Shown piece by piece: positions 2,495 through 7,970 of a stretch of DNA of 64,000 bases (within the stretch, counting starts at the first letter, position 1; the number at the start of each line of letters is the position of its first letter). Under the pieces are notes generated by a model that was not told the DNA's origin, made no database searches, and saw only the letters and a list, made by a program, of their open reading frames with translations. This DNA is from Kocuria tytonicola. Lineage in GTDB: Bacteria; Actinomycetota; Actinomycetes; Actinomycetales; Micrococcaceae. Made by a program: the position numbers and the translations under genes. The DNA lies in NCBI RefSeq assembly GCF_003687455.1, contig NZ_PHOA01000001.1:1-64000 (forward strand), written 5' to 3'.

Positions 2495-3784
2495 ATGAGC
2501 ACTCACACTCCCTCCCCGGCCACCCCGGATTCCGGTTCCCTGCCCGCGCAGGACCCCCGTCAGGACCGTCCCCTCCCCCGCGGCGAGCGCCGCGCGTGGA
2601 ACACCGCCACCGCCGTGGTGGGCGGCGTGGCCGCGATCGGCCTGCTGGTCGGCGGCGCGGGCGTCACCGGCGCACTCGCCCTGACGCAGGATCACAACGG
2701 GTCCTGGACCGCGCCCGCCGCCGTCAAGAGCATCCATGTGGACGCGGCCGACGCCGCCGTCTACGTCCACACCAGCGCCACCGCGGACCGCGTGCAGGTG
2801 CTGTGGTCCGAGGCCGGAATCAACATCCCGGACCGCGCGCCCTCCCCTTCCCTGCACGACGGCGCGCTGTCCCTCGACCTGGGCGCCGCAGCCAACGGCT
2901 GGGGTCTGGGAGGGTCCTCGAACCGCAGCGTCTCCGTCACCGTCCCCGAGGACTCCGCGCCGGTCTCCCTGGATCTTCAGGGCACCACTGACGCGCTCTC
3001 CGTGGAGGGCACGTTCAAGGACGTCGTCGCCAGCACGGACACCGGTTCGGTGGAGGCCAACGACCTGGAGGCCGCCACGGTGGACGCCCGATCCACGAAC
3101 GGGCGGGTGCTGCTGGACGGCGTGCACGTGAGCAACCGGCTGGACGCCCACACGGACAACGGCATGGTGCTCGTGGACACCCAGGGCACCTCCCCGAAGC
3201 GCGCCTCCATCACGGGGGGCTCCGGCTACTACGGCGTGACCATGCCCACCGCGGACTACTGGTACCCGCAGGGCAGCCAGAAGGACTTCACCGATCCGCG
3301 GCACCCGGCGACCACGGACCCGGTCGGCTCGGACCCGTCGGATCCCACGGACGACTCGTCCCTGGAGTACTACGGGACGTACGACTACAGCCCCCTGCCC
3401 TCCGAGGTCAGCACCCCGTCCCTGTTCGCGACGGCGGAGCCGTCCACCTCGGCCACGCCGCGGGCGACGTCGGGCGGGGGTACGCCCGCGAGCCCCAGCG
3501 CGTCGTCGAGCTCTGTTGCGTCGGAGAGGCCGCGGGCGACGTCGTCGACGACGCACGGGGCCGTGGAAGAGACAGGGCGCGGCCACGACGCGGACACCGT
3601 GTGCAAGGCCGCGCCGCGCGACAGGCCCTGCCTCTACCTCCAGGGCACGCCCATGAGCGTGAAGGACTCCGGGTGGATGAACGCGTGGCACGACGGCTGG
3701 CGCTCCCCCGGCACCAGGCAGGACCGCGACGACCAGCCGGAGCAAGACCTGTCCGAGTCCGGTTCACCGGCTCGCGAGAACTAG
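2495..3784 (+). CDS. Membrane-anchored DUF4097-like beta-helix protein
   Basis: 429-residue protein, third gene of the two-component operon. A cytoplasmic Pro-rich start is followed by one membrane helix (residues ~37-63). The exported part has short repeats ending in Val/Asp/Asn, such as SVEGTFKDVVASTDTGSVEAN and VLLDGVHVSNRLDAHTDNG, typical of DUF4097/adhesin-type beta-helices. The last ~150 residues are Ser/Thr/Pro/Asp-rich with no recognised domain. Similar proteins accompany envelope-stress kinases in Gram-positives, so a signalling or cell-envelope role is inferred. Catalytic residues are not evident. Confidence 0.7.
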   Translation: MSTHTPSPATPDSGSLPAQDPRQDRPLPRGERRAWNTATAVVGGVAAIGLLVGGAGVTGALALTQDHNGSWTAPAAVKSIHVDAADAAVYVHTSATADRVQVLWSEAGINIPDRAPSPSLHDGALSLDLGAAANGWGLGGSSNRSVSVTVPEDSAPVSLDLQGTTDALSVEGTFKDVVASTDTGSVEANDLEAATVDARSTNGRVLLDGVHVSNRLDAHTDNGMVLVDTQGTSPKRASITGGSGYYGVTMPTADYWYPQGSQKDFTDPRHPATTDPVGSDPSDPTDDSSLEYYGTYDYSPLPSEVSTPSLFATAEPSTSATPRATSGGGTPASPSASSSSVASERPRATSSTTHGAVEETGRGHDADTVCKAAPRDRPCLYLQGTPMSVKDSGWMNAWHDGWRSPGTRQDRDDQPEQDLSESGSPAREN

Positions 3785-3819
3785 AACTCCCGTCCGGGGC
3801 GTACGGGCTCCGGGCGGGT

Positions 3820-3858
3820 GCCCCGCGGCACCGCAGACCAGGCGGCCGCGGGGCTTTT
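3820..3858 (+). terminator. Intrinsic terminator of the two-component operon
   Basis: GCCCCGCGG at 3820-3828 pairs perfectly with CCGCGGGGC at 3846-3854 and is followed directly by TTTT. It lies 36 bases after the stop of the DUF4097-like gene and in front of the convergent minus-strand operon, so it probably separates the two. Confidence 0.8.
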
Positions 3859-3918
3859 GTCCGTTGAGAGACCCGCCGGGTACGGGCGCAGCCGGGAACG
3901 TGGACCGGCCCCCGCCTG

Positions 3919-4830
3919 CTACGGGCCCCAGACCCCCGCCTTGTAGTGGTTGGTGACGTCCTGCTGGGTGAAGCCGCGGTTGTAGACCGCCGCGAAGCCG
4001 ATGTTGCCCTTGAAGCACTCCGCCGACTTGGCGGGGGCGTCCGGCCAGGAGTCCACGCGGGCGCACCCGATCCGCCAGCGGGCAGGGGAATACGTCTCCA
4101 GCGTTCCGGTGGCAGGGGTGCTGCCCACGAGCACACCGTCCAGGTAGACCGAGGCGAAACCGGCGGCGGGATCCCGCGTGGCAACCACGTGGTGCCACTT
4201 GCCGTCCGCCACGGTCGCTGGGCTCTGGACACGCTCGAATCCGCCGGTGGCCGAGACGTAGTTGCTCATGTTCAGCTTGCCGGAGGCACCCACGTAGAGC
4301 TCGCGGTCGAACTTCAGTTCCTGGGGATACGTGTCGTTGTTCGTCAGGGCCATGAGGTTGCCCTGTGTACCCGTGGACTGGAACCACAGCTCCTGCGTGT
4401 ACGTCTGCGGCGGGGTCACGGACGTGGTGTTGCGCACGATTGAGGGGCTTTTCGTGTTCCCGGCGAACTCCAGGTAGCCCACGGTGTCGTGCTTGCACGC
4501 CGTGGCCGTGTTCCTGGGCGTCACGTAGGAGGAGGCGGTGCTGCTGTTGCTGCCATCCACCAGGTTCGTGGGCCTGGTCTCGTTGAACTGGTAGGCGAAG
4601 ACCCGCCCCGTCTCCTTGGTCAGCGCCTCGCGGCACGAGAAGAACGGCATGACGGTGCCCGAGTTGGCCGTGTTGTTGACCGCCGCGGTGAACCGCCCCA
4701 GGGTGCCGGGGGTGACCAGGGGGATGACCACCAGGGCCACCGTCACCAGCAGCCCGAGGGCCACCCGCAGCAGCCGAGCACGCTGCTCGGGGCTCTGCTT
4801 CCGCATGCTCTGCGATGAGGACTCGCTCAT
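3919..4830 (-). CDS. Secreted LamG/concanavalin-like protein with SipW-type signal
   Basis: 303-residue exported protein, last gene of the surface operon. Residues ~20-45 form a hydrophobic signal or anchor ending LGRFTAAVNNTANSG, which closely resembles the same place in the TasA-like protein of this operon (LGAYTASIKNDNNTAG). After it comes a LamG/laminin-G-like jelly roll: LEFAGNTKS, QELWFQSTG, KWHHVVATRDPA and ASVYLDGVLVGS are the standard strands. Four cysteines may form disulfides. The start ATG overlaps the stop of the upstream peptidase gene by ATGA. A carbohydrate- or protein-binding surface role is inferred. Confidence 0.8.
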   Translation of the reverse strand: MSESSSQSMRKQSPEQRARLLRVALGLLVTVALVVIPLVTPGTLGRFTAAVNNTANSGTVMPFFSCREALTKETGRVFAYQFNETRPTNLVDGSNSSTASSYVTPRNTATACKHDTVGYLEFAGNTKSPSIVRNTTSVTPPQTYTQELWFQSTGTQGNLMALTNNDTYPQELKFDRELYVGASGKLNMSNYVSATGGFERVQSPATVADGKWHHVVATRDPAAGFASVYLDGVLVGSTPATGTLETYSPARWRIGCARVDSWPDAPAKSAECFKGNIGFAAVYNRGFTQQDVTNHYKAGVWGP

Positions 4831-5867
4831 GCGGGGACCTCCTCCTTCTGGCGCGTGACGCGCTGGTGGATCCCGAAGAGCACGAACGGGCTTGCGCAGT
4901 ACAGCACCGCGCCCAGCCACCACCCCGGGGTCAGCTCCACCCGCGGGTAGAACGTGAACTTGCCGCCGTCGGAGGGTTCGTCCGCCCGGGCCATCCCGTC
5001 CGCACCCGTGGGCGCGAGGACGTCCGTGGCCGTGCCGCGGTCCTCCGCCGGTGCAACGCTCACCGGGAAGATGCCGGTGCTGACCACGTGGGCCTCGGCG
5101 AACGGGCCGTCCGCGTCCTGGTCCGTCTTCATGCTCAGCAGCTGGACCCCCAGCAGCGGCTGGACGATCACCACGGACAGTGCCACCCCGCAGAACAGCC
5201 CCAGCGCGCGGTACCGGAACTTCGCCCGTGGATCGCGCACGCGCACGGTCAGCAGCATGCTCACCAGCAGCACCACCAGCACGATGGGCAGCATCTTGGT
5301 GACCCACCCCATGACCGGTGCGACGACGACAGCGCGGCCCTCCAGGTTGCCCTGCACCACCCGTTCGGGGTCCGGCGTGCCATTGAGGTCGCCCTGGGTC
5401 TGGGCGGAGGCCCCGTCCACCGAGACCACCCGGTGCGTGTGGGTGGTTCCGCCCGTGGACGGCGCCACGGTCACGATGTCCCCGGCGTGCAGCTCCGCCA
5501 CCTCGGCGGGCTGGGTCACCACCAGGGATCCCACCGGCGCGGAGGTGCCCATGGACGCGGTCTCCATGATGTACGCGCGGTACCCGCCCAGCCCCAGCAC
5601 CACGCACAGGACCACGAACAGGCTCAGCACGACGGCGCCCACCCACCCGATGATCCGTGCCGTGCGTCCGCCGCGGGGCTGCGCGGCGTCGTCACCGTCC
5701 TCCGCCGTGTCGTCCTCGGGCCCGGGGACGCCCTCGGCCCCCGCCTCGGAATGTGCCGCAACGTCGTCGCCGACCCCGGGGGACCGTTCCTCGGGGTCGA
5801 CGACGGCCAGCGGTTCCGTGCGCGGGGCATCCGCGTCCGGCTCGTCCCGGGGAAGAGGTGACGACAT
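4827..5867 (-). CDS. Signal peptidase I, SipW/ER type (S26B)
   Basis: Membrane peptidase expected to cleave the signals of its two operon neighbours. The N-terminal ~70 residues are acidic and disordered. A membrane helix (IIGWVGAVVLSLFVVLCVVLG) leads into the Ser box ETASMGTSAPVGSLVV, and the second catalytic box reads THTHRVVSVDG. A His there instead of Lys is characteristic of the ER/archaeal/SipW subfamily rather than LepB. Three more hydrophobic segments follow, flanking an extracytoplasmic loop. Most SipW proteins are near 190 residues, so at 346 this one carries extra N- and C-terminal parts. It sits between its two presumed substrates. Confidence 0.85.
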   Translation of the reverse strand: MSSPLPRDEPDADAPRTEPLAVVDPEERSPGVGDDVAAHSEAGAEGVPGPEDDTAEDGDDAAQPRGGRTARIIGWVGAVVLSLFVVLCVVLGLGGYRAYIMETASMGTSAPVGSLVVTQPAEVAELHAGDIVTVAPSTGGTTHTHRVVSVDGASAQTQGDLNGTPDPERVVQGNLEGRAVVVAPVMGWVTKMLPIVLVVLLVSMLLTVRVRDPRAKFRYRALGLFCGVALSVVIVQPLLGVQLLSMKTDQDADGPFAEAHVVSTGIFPVSVAPAEDRGTATDVLAPTGADGMARADEPSDGGKFTFYPRVELTPGWWLGAVLYCASPFVLFGIHQRVTRQKEEVPA

Positions 5868-5886
5868 GGGGGCCTTTCCGTGGTCA

Positions 5887-5969
5887 CGCCGTCACCCGGC
5901 CGGTGGGCGGGGTGACGGCGACGTCGCTGATCGGTGGCAACGGCAAACGCCGGCGACCGGCGCCGGCGT
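5887..5969 (-). terminator. Two strong hairpins between TasA-like and peptidase genes
   Basis: CGCCGTCACCC (5887-5897) pairs perfectly with GGGTGACGGCG (5910-5920), and ACGCCGGCG (5947-5955) pairs with CGCCGGCGT (5961-5969). Both lie in the 122-base gap after the first gene of the operon. There is no T-run, so they are more likely an attenuator or mRNA-stabilising element favouring the structural protein than a full stop. Confidence 0.45.
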
Positions 5970-5989
5970 CTGCAGAGGTGCTCAGGGGA

Positions 5990-6622
5990 TCAGGCGGTGT
6001 ACGTCCAGGTCAGGGGCTGGGAGATGGTAACTCCCGCGTAGGTGTTGTCCGCGGAGACGGGCAGCGTGGTGGTGATCTTGTACGCGTTCGACGCTCCGGC
6101 CGCGGGTGCAGTGAGCGTGATCGGGGAGTTCGACTTGGCCGCGAGCTCCTTGGCCGTGCCCCTGAAGATCTCGGTGCCGTCCTGAGTGATGACCACGTTC
6201 ATGAGGCCGCACAGGTCGCCCTTGCCGGCAGCCACGGCGGGAGTCTGCGTGCAGGCCCCCGGGGTCAGCGTGGCGGCCTTGGCCGCGATGCTGCCGGTGT
6301 TCTTCAGGGTGATGTTGACCGTGGAGACGTCCCCGGGGGCCATCGTGGTCTTGCCGCCGTACTTGTTGATGGTGGCGCACGTGGCAACGTTGTTGGTCCC
6401 CTCGGAGCTGTCGCACGTCACGTTCGTGCCGTCCGCACCGGGCCCGGTCTCCTGCATGGTCAACCCGCCGGCGCCGGCGGTGTTGTTGTCGTTCTTGATC
6501 GACGCGGTGTACGCGCCCAGCGAGCCCGTGACCAGGCTGAGGACCAGCGCACCGGCGCCCAGGGTTGCCGGCACGAGCCACGCGATGGACTTCTTACGTT
6601 GGGGGGTGGACTCAGCGGTCAT
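5990..6622 (-). CDS. TasA/camelysin-like secreted protein (SipW-dependent type)
   Basis: 210-residue exported protein, first gene of the surface operon. The signal is PQRKKSIAWLVPATLGAGAL with hydrophobic core to about residue 36 and the SipW-type end GSLGAYTASIKNDNNTAG. The remainder is Thr/Ala/Gly-rich beta-sandwich-like sequence (MAPGDVSTVNITLKNTGS) resembling the TasA/CalY family, with four cysteines. The ATG at 6622 was chosen over 6640 because GAGAAG precedes it by about 8 bases. In Bacillus, TasA forms matrix fibres processed by SipW; a pilus- or fibre-like role here is inference from family and gene order. Confidence 0.75.
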   Translation of the reverse strand: MTAESTPQRKKSIAWLVPATLGAGALVLSLVTGSLGAYTASIKNDNNTAGAGGLTMQETGPGADGTNVTCDSSEGTNNVATCATINKYGGKTTMAPGDVSTVNITLKNTGSIAAKAATLTPGACTQTPAVAAGKGDLCGLMNVVITQDGTEIFRGTAKELAAKSNSPITLTAPAAGASNAYKITTTLPVSADNTYAGVTISQPLTWTYTA

Positions 6623-6663
6623 GTTCCGGGCTTCTCTCATGATTTTGCATTAGTAACATCTGA

Positions 6664-6692
6664 AGCGTAGCGCCTTACCTACCCAAAGTAAA
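6664..6692 (-). promoter_or_regulatory. Probable promoter of the TasA-like/peptidase/LamG operon
   Basis: Reading on the minus strand, TTTACT (6692-6687) is followed after exactly 17 bases by TACGCT (6669-6664). These are fair -35 and -10 elements about 40 bases before the TasA-like start, within an unusually AT-rich stretch for this genome (6641-6710). Confidence 0.45.
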
Positions 6693-6746
6693 TACGTCTG
6701 CATACACCTTTTCGGGCGTTCACGGTCCGGCCCGTAGCCTGGGGAC

Positions 6747-7970
6747 GTGTCTGTCCCCGCCGCCTCCCCCTCCATGGACCCCGCGCGCATCACCCGCGCG
6801 CGGATCGCCGCGTCCCTGCTGTTCCTCACGAACGGCGCGATCTTCTCGAACCTGCTGCCGCGGCTGCCGGAGATCAAGGACATGTTCGAGCTCTCCAACG
6901 CGATGTACGGGCTGGCACTGATCGCGTTTCCGATCGGCGGCGTGGTGGCCGGGCCGTTGCCCGCGCCCATCCTGCGGCGCTTCGGGACCGCCCGGACCGC
7001 GGCCGTGGGATCCGTGCTGCTGGCCACCGCGGTGTGCGTGGCCGGATCCGTACCGGTGCTGGCGGTGTTCGGCGCGGGGCTCTTCCTCGCCGGGGTGCTG
7101 GACGCCGTGGTGGACACCGCCCAGAACGCCCAGGGGCTGCGGGTGCAGCGGCTGGCCGGGACCTCCATGATCAACTCCATGCACGCCCTGTGGAGCGTGG
7201 GTGCCGTGATCGGCGGGCTCATGGGCACGGGCGCCGCGGCCCTGCACGTGCCATTCGTGTGGCACTTCCTCACCAGCGCGGTGCTGTTCTCCGCGGTCGC
7301 CGTGCTGGCCATGCGCTGGGCCGTGCCGGACGACCCCGACTCCCACGCCGCAGCCCAGGCCGAGAGCGTCCCCCTGGACACCGCCGGGCTCCCCCGCCTC
7401 CCGCGCGGCACCGGTGCCGCGCTGCTCGCCCTGCTGCCCATTGCCGTGATCGCCATGTCCGGGGTGCTCGTGGAGGACGTGGGGTCCAACTGGTCCGCCG
7501 TCTACCTCCGGGACGTCCTCTCCGCCCCCGTGGGCATGGTGGGCCTGGGGTACGTGAGCCTCGTGGGGGCGCAGTTCGTGGGCCGCATCCTGGGCGACCG
7601 GCTCATCGACGCCCTCGGCGCGGTGCTGGTCACCCGCATCGGCGGCGTGCTGATCCTCGTGGGACTCGGCGCCGTGGCCCTGGTCCCCGCCCCCTGGGTG
7701 GCTCTGGCGGGCTTCGCGCTCGCGGGCTTCGGCTGCGCCACCATGGTCCCCACCGCGTACGCCGCCGCGGACCGCGCACCGGGTCTGAAACCGGGCACCG
7801 GGCTCACGCTCGTGAGCTGGTGCATGCGCATCGTCTTCGTGATCTCCCCGCCCCTCGTGGGTCTCTTCGCCGACGCCGTGGGGCTGCGCACCGCGCTGTT
7901 CGTCTTCCCCTTCATGGGCGTGCTGGCGTTCCTCTTCGCGGGCGCACTGCGGGTGCGCGGCCGTTCCTGA
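6747..7970 (+). CDS. MFS transporter
   Basis: 407-residue major facilitator permease with about 12 hydrophobic segments. The first half starts ARIAASLLFLTNGAIFSNLLPRLPEIKDMF, the pattern of YbjJ/fucose-permease-like MFS proteins, followed by GPLPAPILRRFGT at the loop 2-3 position. The GTG at 6747 lies exactly 6 bases after TAGCCT (6735-6740) with no Shine-Dalgarno, suggesting a leaderless transcript; an ATG at 6774 is the alternative. It is divergent from the TasA-like operon and ends 36 bases before the P450. Substrate unknown. Confidence 0.88.
   Translation: MSVPAASPSMDPARITRARIAASLLFLTNGAIFSNLLPRLPEIKDMFELSNAMYGLALIAFPIGGVVAGPLPAPILRRFGTARTAAVGSVLLATAVCVAGSVPVLAVFGAGLFLAGVLDAVVDTAQNAQGLRVQRLAGTSMINSMHALWSVGAVIGGLMGTGAAALHVPFVWHFLTSAVLFSAVAVLAMRWAVPDDPDSHAAAQAESVPLDTAGLPRLPRGTGAALLALLPIAVIAMSGVLVEDVGSNWSAVYLRDVLSAPVGMVGLGYVSLVGAQFVGRILGDRLIDALGAVLVTRIGGVLILVGLGAVALVPAPWVALAGFALAGFGCATMVPTAYAAADRAPGLKPGTGLTLVSWCMRIVFVISPPLVGLFADAVGLRTALFVFPFMGVLAFLFAGALRVRGRS

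Follow-up and report, generated by a model that had tools for sequence, protein, structure and literature searches.

A TasA-like protein, an endoplasmic reticulum-type signal peptidase and a LamG protein share an operon in Kocuria tytonicola and may form a fibre system of the TasA type

In Bacillus subtilis, SipW processes TasA, which has Phe at P2′, and an aromatic residue at P2′ hinders Escherichia coli LepB; the processing of TasA has been discussed over the stretch from P3 to P4′ (PMC10269814). The donor strand of TasA comprises residues 28-38, and the N-terminus of TapA resembles that strand (PMC9674648); TapA has an immunoglobulin (Ig) fold and has been placed at the filament start only (PMC10151520). 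These statements, like all cited below, come from excerpts of the papers named. We examined a 64,000-nucleotide stretch of the Kocuria tytonicola genome (contig NZ_PHOA01000001.1, positions 1 to 64,000; here called the window), in which an initial annotation had placed a TasA/camelysin-like protein (TasL), an endoplasmic reticulum (ER)-type signal peptidase (Pep) and a LamG protein in one minus-strand operon. All three genes indeed lie within positions 3919-6692, as a minus-strand operon (3919-6622) in the order TasL, Pep, LamG. We favor the view, at a rough probability of 0.58, that this operon encodes a secreted TasA-type fibre in which LamG is a strand-donating end subunit and Pep cuts both proteins.

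The three genes recur together well beyond the window. Window Pep was matched in 114 of 197 genomes of the family, mostly over residues 60-200, and when 20 stretches around the better matches were fetched, the longest matches were those with TasL, Pep and LamG together. A scan of genome contigs with window Pep alone found no relative. We then scanned named genomes with a TasL alignment (A1, 8 rows), which gave 125 relatives, and kept 80 loci; profiles A1 to A3 detected TasL, Pep and LamG in 67 of these, TasL and Pep in 5, and TasL alone in 8. At 65 of the 80 loci, at least 2,200 bases followed TasL. Among these informative loci, 64 carried the full trio (50 with separate Pep and LamG genes, 14 with the two fused) and 1 had no LamG, so the two genes do co-occur elsewhere, as the initial annotation required for its proposal to stand. 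The peptidase is split between frames at L059 and L127, both of which are included in these counts. The genera represented include Curtobacterium, Clavibacter, Subtercola, Rathayibacter, Microbacterium, Frondihabitans, Arthrobacter, Pseudarthrobacter, Paenarthrobacter and Corynebacterium, together with Propionibacteriaceae and others. The trio does recur in Micrococcaceae but is not chiefly a trait of that family: in a further sample, independent of the first, full-length TasL was found in 11 of 395 Micrococcaceae genomes (24 of 395 if weaker partial matches are included). Pep and LamG were present in 10 of those 11 genomes, and in the 11th (G038) each of the two copies is cut off by the end of a contig. 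Across the phylum, TasL was matched in 19 of 396 genomes, 3 of them, the window's included, with an E value below 1e-20; the other two are G483 and a distant genome, G558, the latter of which encodes TasL, a three-domain LamG protein with a TasL-like start, and an extended Pep, in that order. The trio is common in Microbacteriaceae and widespread in actinobacteria. Literature searches, some of which covered just the first entries of longer result lists, and which took in few subscription journals, found no account of it.

Several loci had unusual arrangements. Two Propionibacteriaceae metagenome-assembled genomes (L122 and L126) have an expanded kit, with three copies of TasL and two of the fused Pep-LamG gene following one another. 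One short contig (L108) has the order TasL-Pep-TasL-Pep and lacks LamG in the interval from the first Pep to the second TasL. A fused trio was found on a contig binned as Candidatus Saccharibacteria (L128), reflecting misbinning or gene transfer, and in L057 the peptidase frame stays open for ~3.9 kb beyond its domain, through LamG in another frame.

TasL and LamG share a segment that begins in the signal and extends past the proposed cleavage site. Their signals end in GSLGAYTA (TasL) and GTLGRFTA (LamG), and both fit exactly the pattern G-[ST]-LG-x-[YF]-TA pointed out in the initial annotation. Across the two families the common motif is [TS]-x-[SAG]↓x-[FY]-x-A-x-[IV]-x-N (the arrow marks the proposed cut), and the likeness takes in ~13 mature residues, at the position of the TasA donor strand. 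In a search led by the motif, 86 of 86 TasL and 66 of 68 LamG proteins carried it. The likeness is above chance in a test that involved no selection by motif: on a 13-residue profile made from TasL proteins only, 66 of 68 LamG proteins scored higher than the best of 484 flanking proteins (6.9). The median LamG score on this profile was 19.5 and that of window LamG 10.7; shuffled LamG sequences (n = 340) had a 99th percentile of 9.3 and a highest score of 17.0. A single hhalign comparison of LamG with TasL, which included the hydrophobic signal, gave an E value of 1.4e-8, confined to LamG residues 13-63. If the cut is set at the same place as in TasA, T or S occupies P3 in 43 of 44 distinct TasL segments and in 58 of 60 distinct LamG segments. 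P1 holds S, A or G (43 of 44 TasL, 60 of 60 LamG), and P2′ holds F, Y or W (44 of 44 TasL, 56 of 60 LamG), the search pattern having confined P2′ to F, Y, W and L. All 44 distinct TasL segments have F or Y at P2′; window TasL reads SLG↓AY at its putative cut position. This ending, which the initial annotation took to differ from ordinary Sec signals, as would be expected for a dedicated peptidase, agrees with the published features of SipW substrates, among them the aromatic P2′ (PMC10269814).

A common peptidase would by itself account for the signal, P3, P1 and the aromatic P2′. LamG might therefore be an independent secreted lectin or adhesin that uses the same peptidase as a TasL fibre, with the motif as a recognition site only, and one locus (L095, Corynebacterium falsenii) keeps TasL and Pep with no LamG. 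We think this rather unlikely, since LamG conservation exceeds the P3-P4′ stretch over which TasA processing is discussed in PMC10269814 (N at +7 in 60 of 66 proteins, N or D at +10 in 60 of 66, A at +12 in 58 of 66) and LamG is retained in all but that one of the 65 informative loci. The body of the LamG protein is a Laminin_G_3 domain (PF13385; 73.8 bits against a cut-off of 27.6), a family matched by all 7 members of LamG alignment A3, and it does not have the Ig fold of TapA. Its PHROGs matches are to the LamG-like parts of virion and tail proteins, and we did not take them as evidence of a phage gene. By sequence likeness only, LamG has, as TapA does, a putative N-terminal donor strand that resembles the one in the fibre subunit. 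LamG is TapA-like in its proposed role and is not a TapA. The earlier proposal that LamG stands in place of TapA appears sound, because the common stretch passes the cut and reaches the position of the donor strand, and it is through this feature that TapA has been proposed to initiate fibres (PMC9674648 and PMC10151520). Taken together with the near-constant linkage of the genes, the common segment makes an end subunit the best single reading of LamG, though a provisional one.

The TasA-like label of TasL is weak by sequence and good by predicted fold. With sequence profiles alone, an antibody (E, 0.25) ranked ahead of TasA (E, 0.89 and 1.2). Among 57 TasL relatives, the camelysin family PF12389 matched 19 at E values up to 1 (best, 8.5e-6), TIGR04090 matched 6 weakly (best E, 0.04) and TIGR04089 matched 1 (E, 0.051). 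The model of TasL, built from a 57-row alignment, had a predicted local distance difference test score (pLDDT) of 79.3 and a predicted beta-sandwich of the TasA type. Its first Foldseek match was the TasA fibre (8aur; E, 4.6e-5), followed by FimA (1.7e-3). With VIA, 8aur gave Z 9.7 (root mean square deviation [rmsd], 2.9; 136 aligned), and other donor-strand pilins reached Z 7.8 at most; the TasA monomers 5of1 and 5of2 gave Z 7.8 and 7.6, the archaeal bundling pili (7ueg) Z 7.5, FimA ~7 and below, and 7pnb Z 6.3. TasL also has four conserved cysteines (C70, C82, C124 and C138). We conclude that TasL is likely a TasA-type fibre subunit. The nearest Pfam family is named camelysin metallo-endopeptidase (PF12389), and TasL might on that ground be a camelysin-type metalloprotease with no structural role; window TasL has no histidine, HExxH is absent from all 86 TasL proteins, and the best match of the predicted fold is a fibre subunit, which together make a protease highly improbable.

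Pep carries the Ser, His and Asp boxes of ER-type signal peptidases in place of Ser-Lys. S105 and H145, which represent the Ser and His boxes noted in the initial annotation, are invariant in 48 homologues, as is D166, and D160 is nearly so. Scores fell below the cut-offs of TIGR02228 (46.9 bits; cut-off, 51.85) and of the SipW family of bacilli, NF046067 (22.7 bits; cut-off, 190), and there was no Pfam match up to an E value of 1; profile matches were to SEC11C (E, 1.3e-5) and SEC11A (E, 2.8e-5). In the model (48 rows; pLDDT, 85.8), one helix precedes the catalytic domain, which is followed by two more helices, an outer beta domain and a last helix. Its first Foldseek match was SEC11C (E, 1.0e-3), and its first VIA match was Streptococcus pyogenes SipA (4n31; Z 12.0; rmsd, 1.6; 86 aligned), so profiles and predicted model both point to a signal peptidase fold. 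The order of the helices would place the beta domain outside the cell. For the C-terminal extension, the fold lists gave only a designed protein (Z 5.6) in a search made with the whole model and not with the extension alone. The idea that the outer beta domain is a degenerate TasL was rejected, as no similarity was seen (hhalign probability, 0.2).

The extension sets the peptidases of the trio apart. Matches to other SipW-like peptidases ended before it in 11 of 11 loci (L042-L052) and in 22 of 22 further loci, and no LamG gene lay beside these peptidases in either set (0 of 11, and 0 of 22 within 1.5-kb flanks). The 22-locus set was defined by a peptidase match ending before model position 162 of 287; some of its loci come from one genome, and L169, at a contig end, was left out. 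In a tree of 56 peptidases, the 52 from trios split from the 4 others with a support of 100/100, and window Pep grouped with two from Corynebacterium (98/96, with a long-branch warning). The 2.61-Mb assembly of the host genome has one match to Pep and one PF13385 match (window LamG), and its two ordinary signal peptidases (PF10502) are both on another contig. Pep is likely the dedicated peptidase of TasL.

The link between Pep and LamG is close. Where the two genes are separate, the stop of Pep lies in NTGA in 49 of 51 loci, and the change between fused and separate forms took place at least twice on the peptidase tree. Such fusions (14 of 64 trio loci), the tight overlap at the other loci and the extra membrane and beta region specific to Pep could mean that LamG serves mainly the peptidase, as either a sensor tethered outside the cell or a domain that holds the substrate, and that TasL is soluble or wall coating and forms no fibres. 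We consider this improbable, as the fused proteins keep a hydrophobic stretch and a cleavage-like motif before LamG, as if it were cut off (the motif is kept between Pep and LamG in 18 of 18 LamG segments from fused loci), and the predicted fold of TasL is nearest the fibre form of TasA. Pep might also be an assembly platform, its extra beta domain and helices holding fresh-cut LamG and feeding TasL onto it so that cleavage and initiation are one coupled step; the fused forms would then hold LamG as their own C-terminal passenger. Such a system would be the equivalent, across a single membrane, of an usher with a lectin-like tip. This possibility is tentative and rather unlikely.

In the fibre model that we favor, TasL would be exported through Sec with its SipW-type signal, and Pep would cut at [TS]-x-[SAG]↓x-[FY] to free an N-terminal strand, which would insert into the beta-sandwich of the next subunit by donor-strand exchange. 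LamG, cut by the same Pep and carrying the same strand, would start or cap the fibre in the role of TapA and would be expected at only one fibre end, because its LamG domain body has no TasL-like acceptor; its head could thereby be presented to a glycan, a protein or a surface. A hairpin after TasL may keep TasL above Pep and LamG in abundance. In gaps of at least 30 bases between TasL and Pep, 39 of 54 had a hairpin z score below -2 (composition effects remain in these scores because the shuffles were mononucleotide), and 19 of 54 had a strong perfect stem (p up to 0.05). Gene content, conservation, the motif, the predicted fold and the fusions are observed, whereas cleavage, polymerization, the position of LamG and its ligand are inferred. 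If this model is correct, TasA-type donor-strand fibres served by a dedicated peptidase reach plant-, skin- and soil-associated actinobacteria, and a built-in LamG head offers a ligand-binding fibre end open to direct test. The natural Pep-LamG fusions provide a simple way to probe the coupling of fibre initiation and secretion.

Several observations weigh against a TasA-type fibre with LamG at its end. By sequence, window TasL falls short of PF12389 (13.5 bits; cut-off, 22.5), was without a PF12389 match in the search of its own genome, and matches no NCBIfam family up to an E value of 1, including NF046066 (TasA), TIGR04089 and TIGR04090. Its N-terminus was modelled at a pLDDT of about 42-54, and because of this low confidence the donor strand is placed by analogy. 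The profile score of window LamG is below that of the highest shuffled sequence, the LamG proteins of L103 and L115 score below the flank maximum, and window LamG, alone among 66 motif-bearing LamG proteins, has Arg at P1′. The C. falsenii locus, where an ATP-binding cassette transporter gene comes next, has TasL and Pep but no LamG, so LamG may be dispensable; in genome G483 the TasL-like proteins are accompanied by short peptidases but by no LamG. The locus counts are not independent, because many of the loci are close kin and much of the set is Curtobacterium. Finally, no LPxTG motif was found, which leaves wall anchoring without explanation.

Within Kocuria, full-length TasL was found in 1 of 27 genomes, with a partial match in one more. 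Five relatives (L179, L180, L181, L186 and L187) have empty sites, with 154-467 bases between the flanking DUF4097 and major facilitator superfamily (MFS) genes, compared to 2,962 in the window. At the same site in another genome of the genus (G017; L185, 2833-3345) there is a decayed remnant, consisting of a TasL N-terminus and two LamG pieces in several frames with no peptidase match. These data fit a history in which more members of the genus formerly had the operon and then lost it, with Pep now nearest to Corynebacterium; the operon may have arrived by transfer. TasL was matched in no phages and in one plasmid, and an origin as a phage element is unsupported given the lack of phage matches. 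That plasmid, from Leifsonia sp. ZF2019 (L133), encodes TasL and an extended Pep, both annotated as hypothetical protein, next to an IS3 transposase gene and with no LamG match.

The features of the operon are listed in Table 1. The longest open reading frame of TasL spans 5990-6640; the start at 6622 is likelier than that at 6640 because AGAGAAG lies upstream of it. The operon is flanked by plus-strand genes, DUF4097 (2495-3784) downstream and MFS (6747-7970) upstream. The DUF4097 protein has a long C-terminal tail, and its gene directly follows those of a response regulator (1830-2486) and a sensor kinase-like open reading frame (20-1828). A scan of 3700-6850 predicted no sigma-70 promoter, and its terminator-like matches were all on the plus strand and were not used for the operon.

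Table 1. Positions in the window of the TasL-Pep-LamG operon and its parts
Feature	Coordinates	Strand	Basis or remark
TasL, TasA-like proposed fibre subunit, 210 aa	5990..6622	-	predicted fold best matched by TasA fibre 8aur
TasL mature N-terminus, residues 37-50, proposed donor strand after proposed cut SLG↓AYTA	6473..6514	-	motif; position by analogy with TasA residues 28-38
Hairpin with a 13-bp stem in the gap from TasL to Pep	5943..5973	-	z -3.2 in the window
Pep, ER-type (SipW/SEC11-like) signal peptidase, 346 aa	4827..5867	-	profile, alignment, model
Pep catalytic stretch: Ser105 (5553-5555), His145 (5433-5435), Asp160, Asp166	5370..5555	-	alignment, 48 homologues
Pep C-terminal extension, residues 213-342: two further membrane helices flanking beta domain (241-310)	4842..5231	-	model
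ATGA stop/start overlap of Pep and LamG	4827..4830	-	sequence
LamG protein, 303 aa	3919..4830	-	PF13385
LamG mature N-terminus, residues 46-59, after proposed cut TLG↓RFTA; same motif as TasL	4654..4695	-	motif and profile
LamG domain proper, PF13385, residues 135-292	3955..4428	-	Pfam match

Among described systems, tapA-sipW-tasA of B. subtilis likewise combines, in one operon, an ER-type peptidase with two substrates of the same signal class; the TasL model is nearest to the TasA fibre, and TapA too is a second substrate with a donor-strand segment (PMC9674648). The Kocuria operon differs in that its second substrate is a LamG protein and not an Ig-fold TapA, in its gene order (TasL-Pep-LamG), in the extra C-terminal region of Pep, in the conserved cysteines of TasL and in the existence of Pep-LamG fusions. 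The sipW-calY1-bc_1280-calY2 locus of Bacillus cereus and CapP offer a similar set of SipW, two camelysins and an accessory protein; CapP, however, is a chaperone-like cell-wall protein, for which the excerpts of PMC10151520 and PMC13082335 mention no LamG domain. The SipW-dependent families TIGR04089 and TIGR04090 also comprise SipW-type exported proteins; window TasL matches neither family up to an E value of 1. The archaeal thread Saci_0406 and the bundling pili of P. calidifontis are donor-strand fibres, and both folds are among the TasL matches, although matches with Z below 8 may reflect a common arrangement only. The putative cap Saci_0405 resembles LamG as proposed here in having a donor strand without an acceptor site (PMC9715654), and differs from it in its pilin-like fold.

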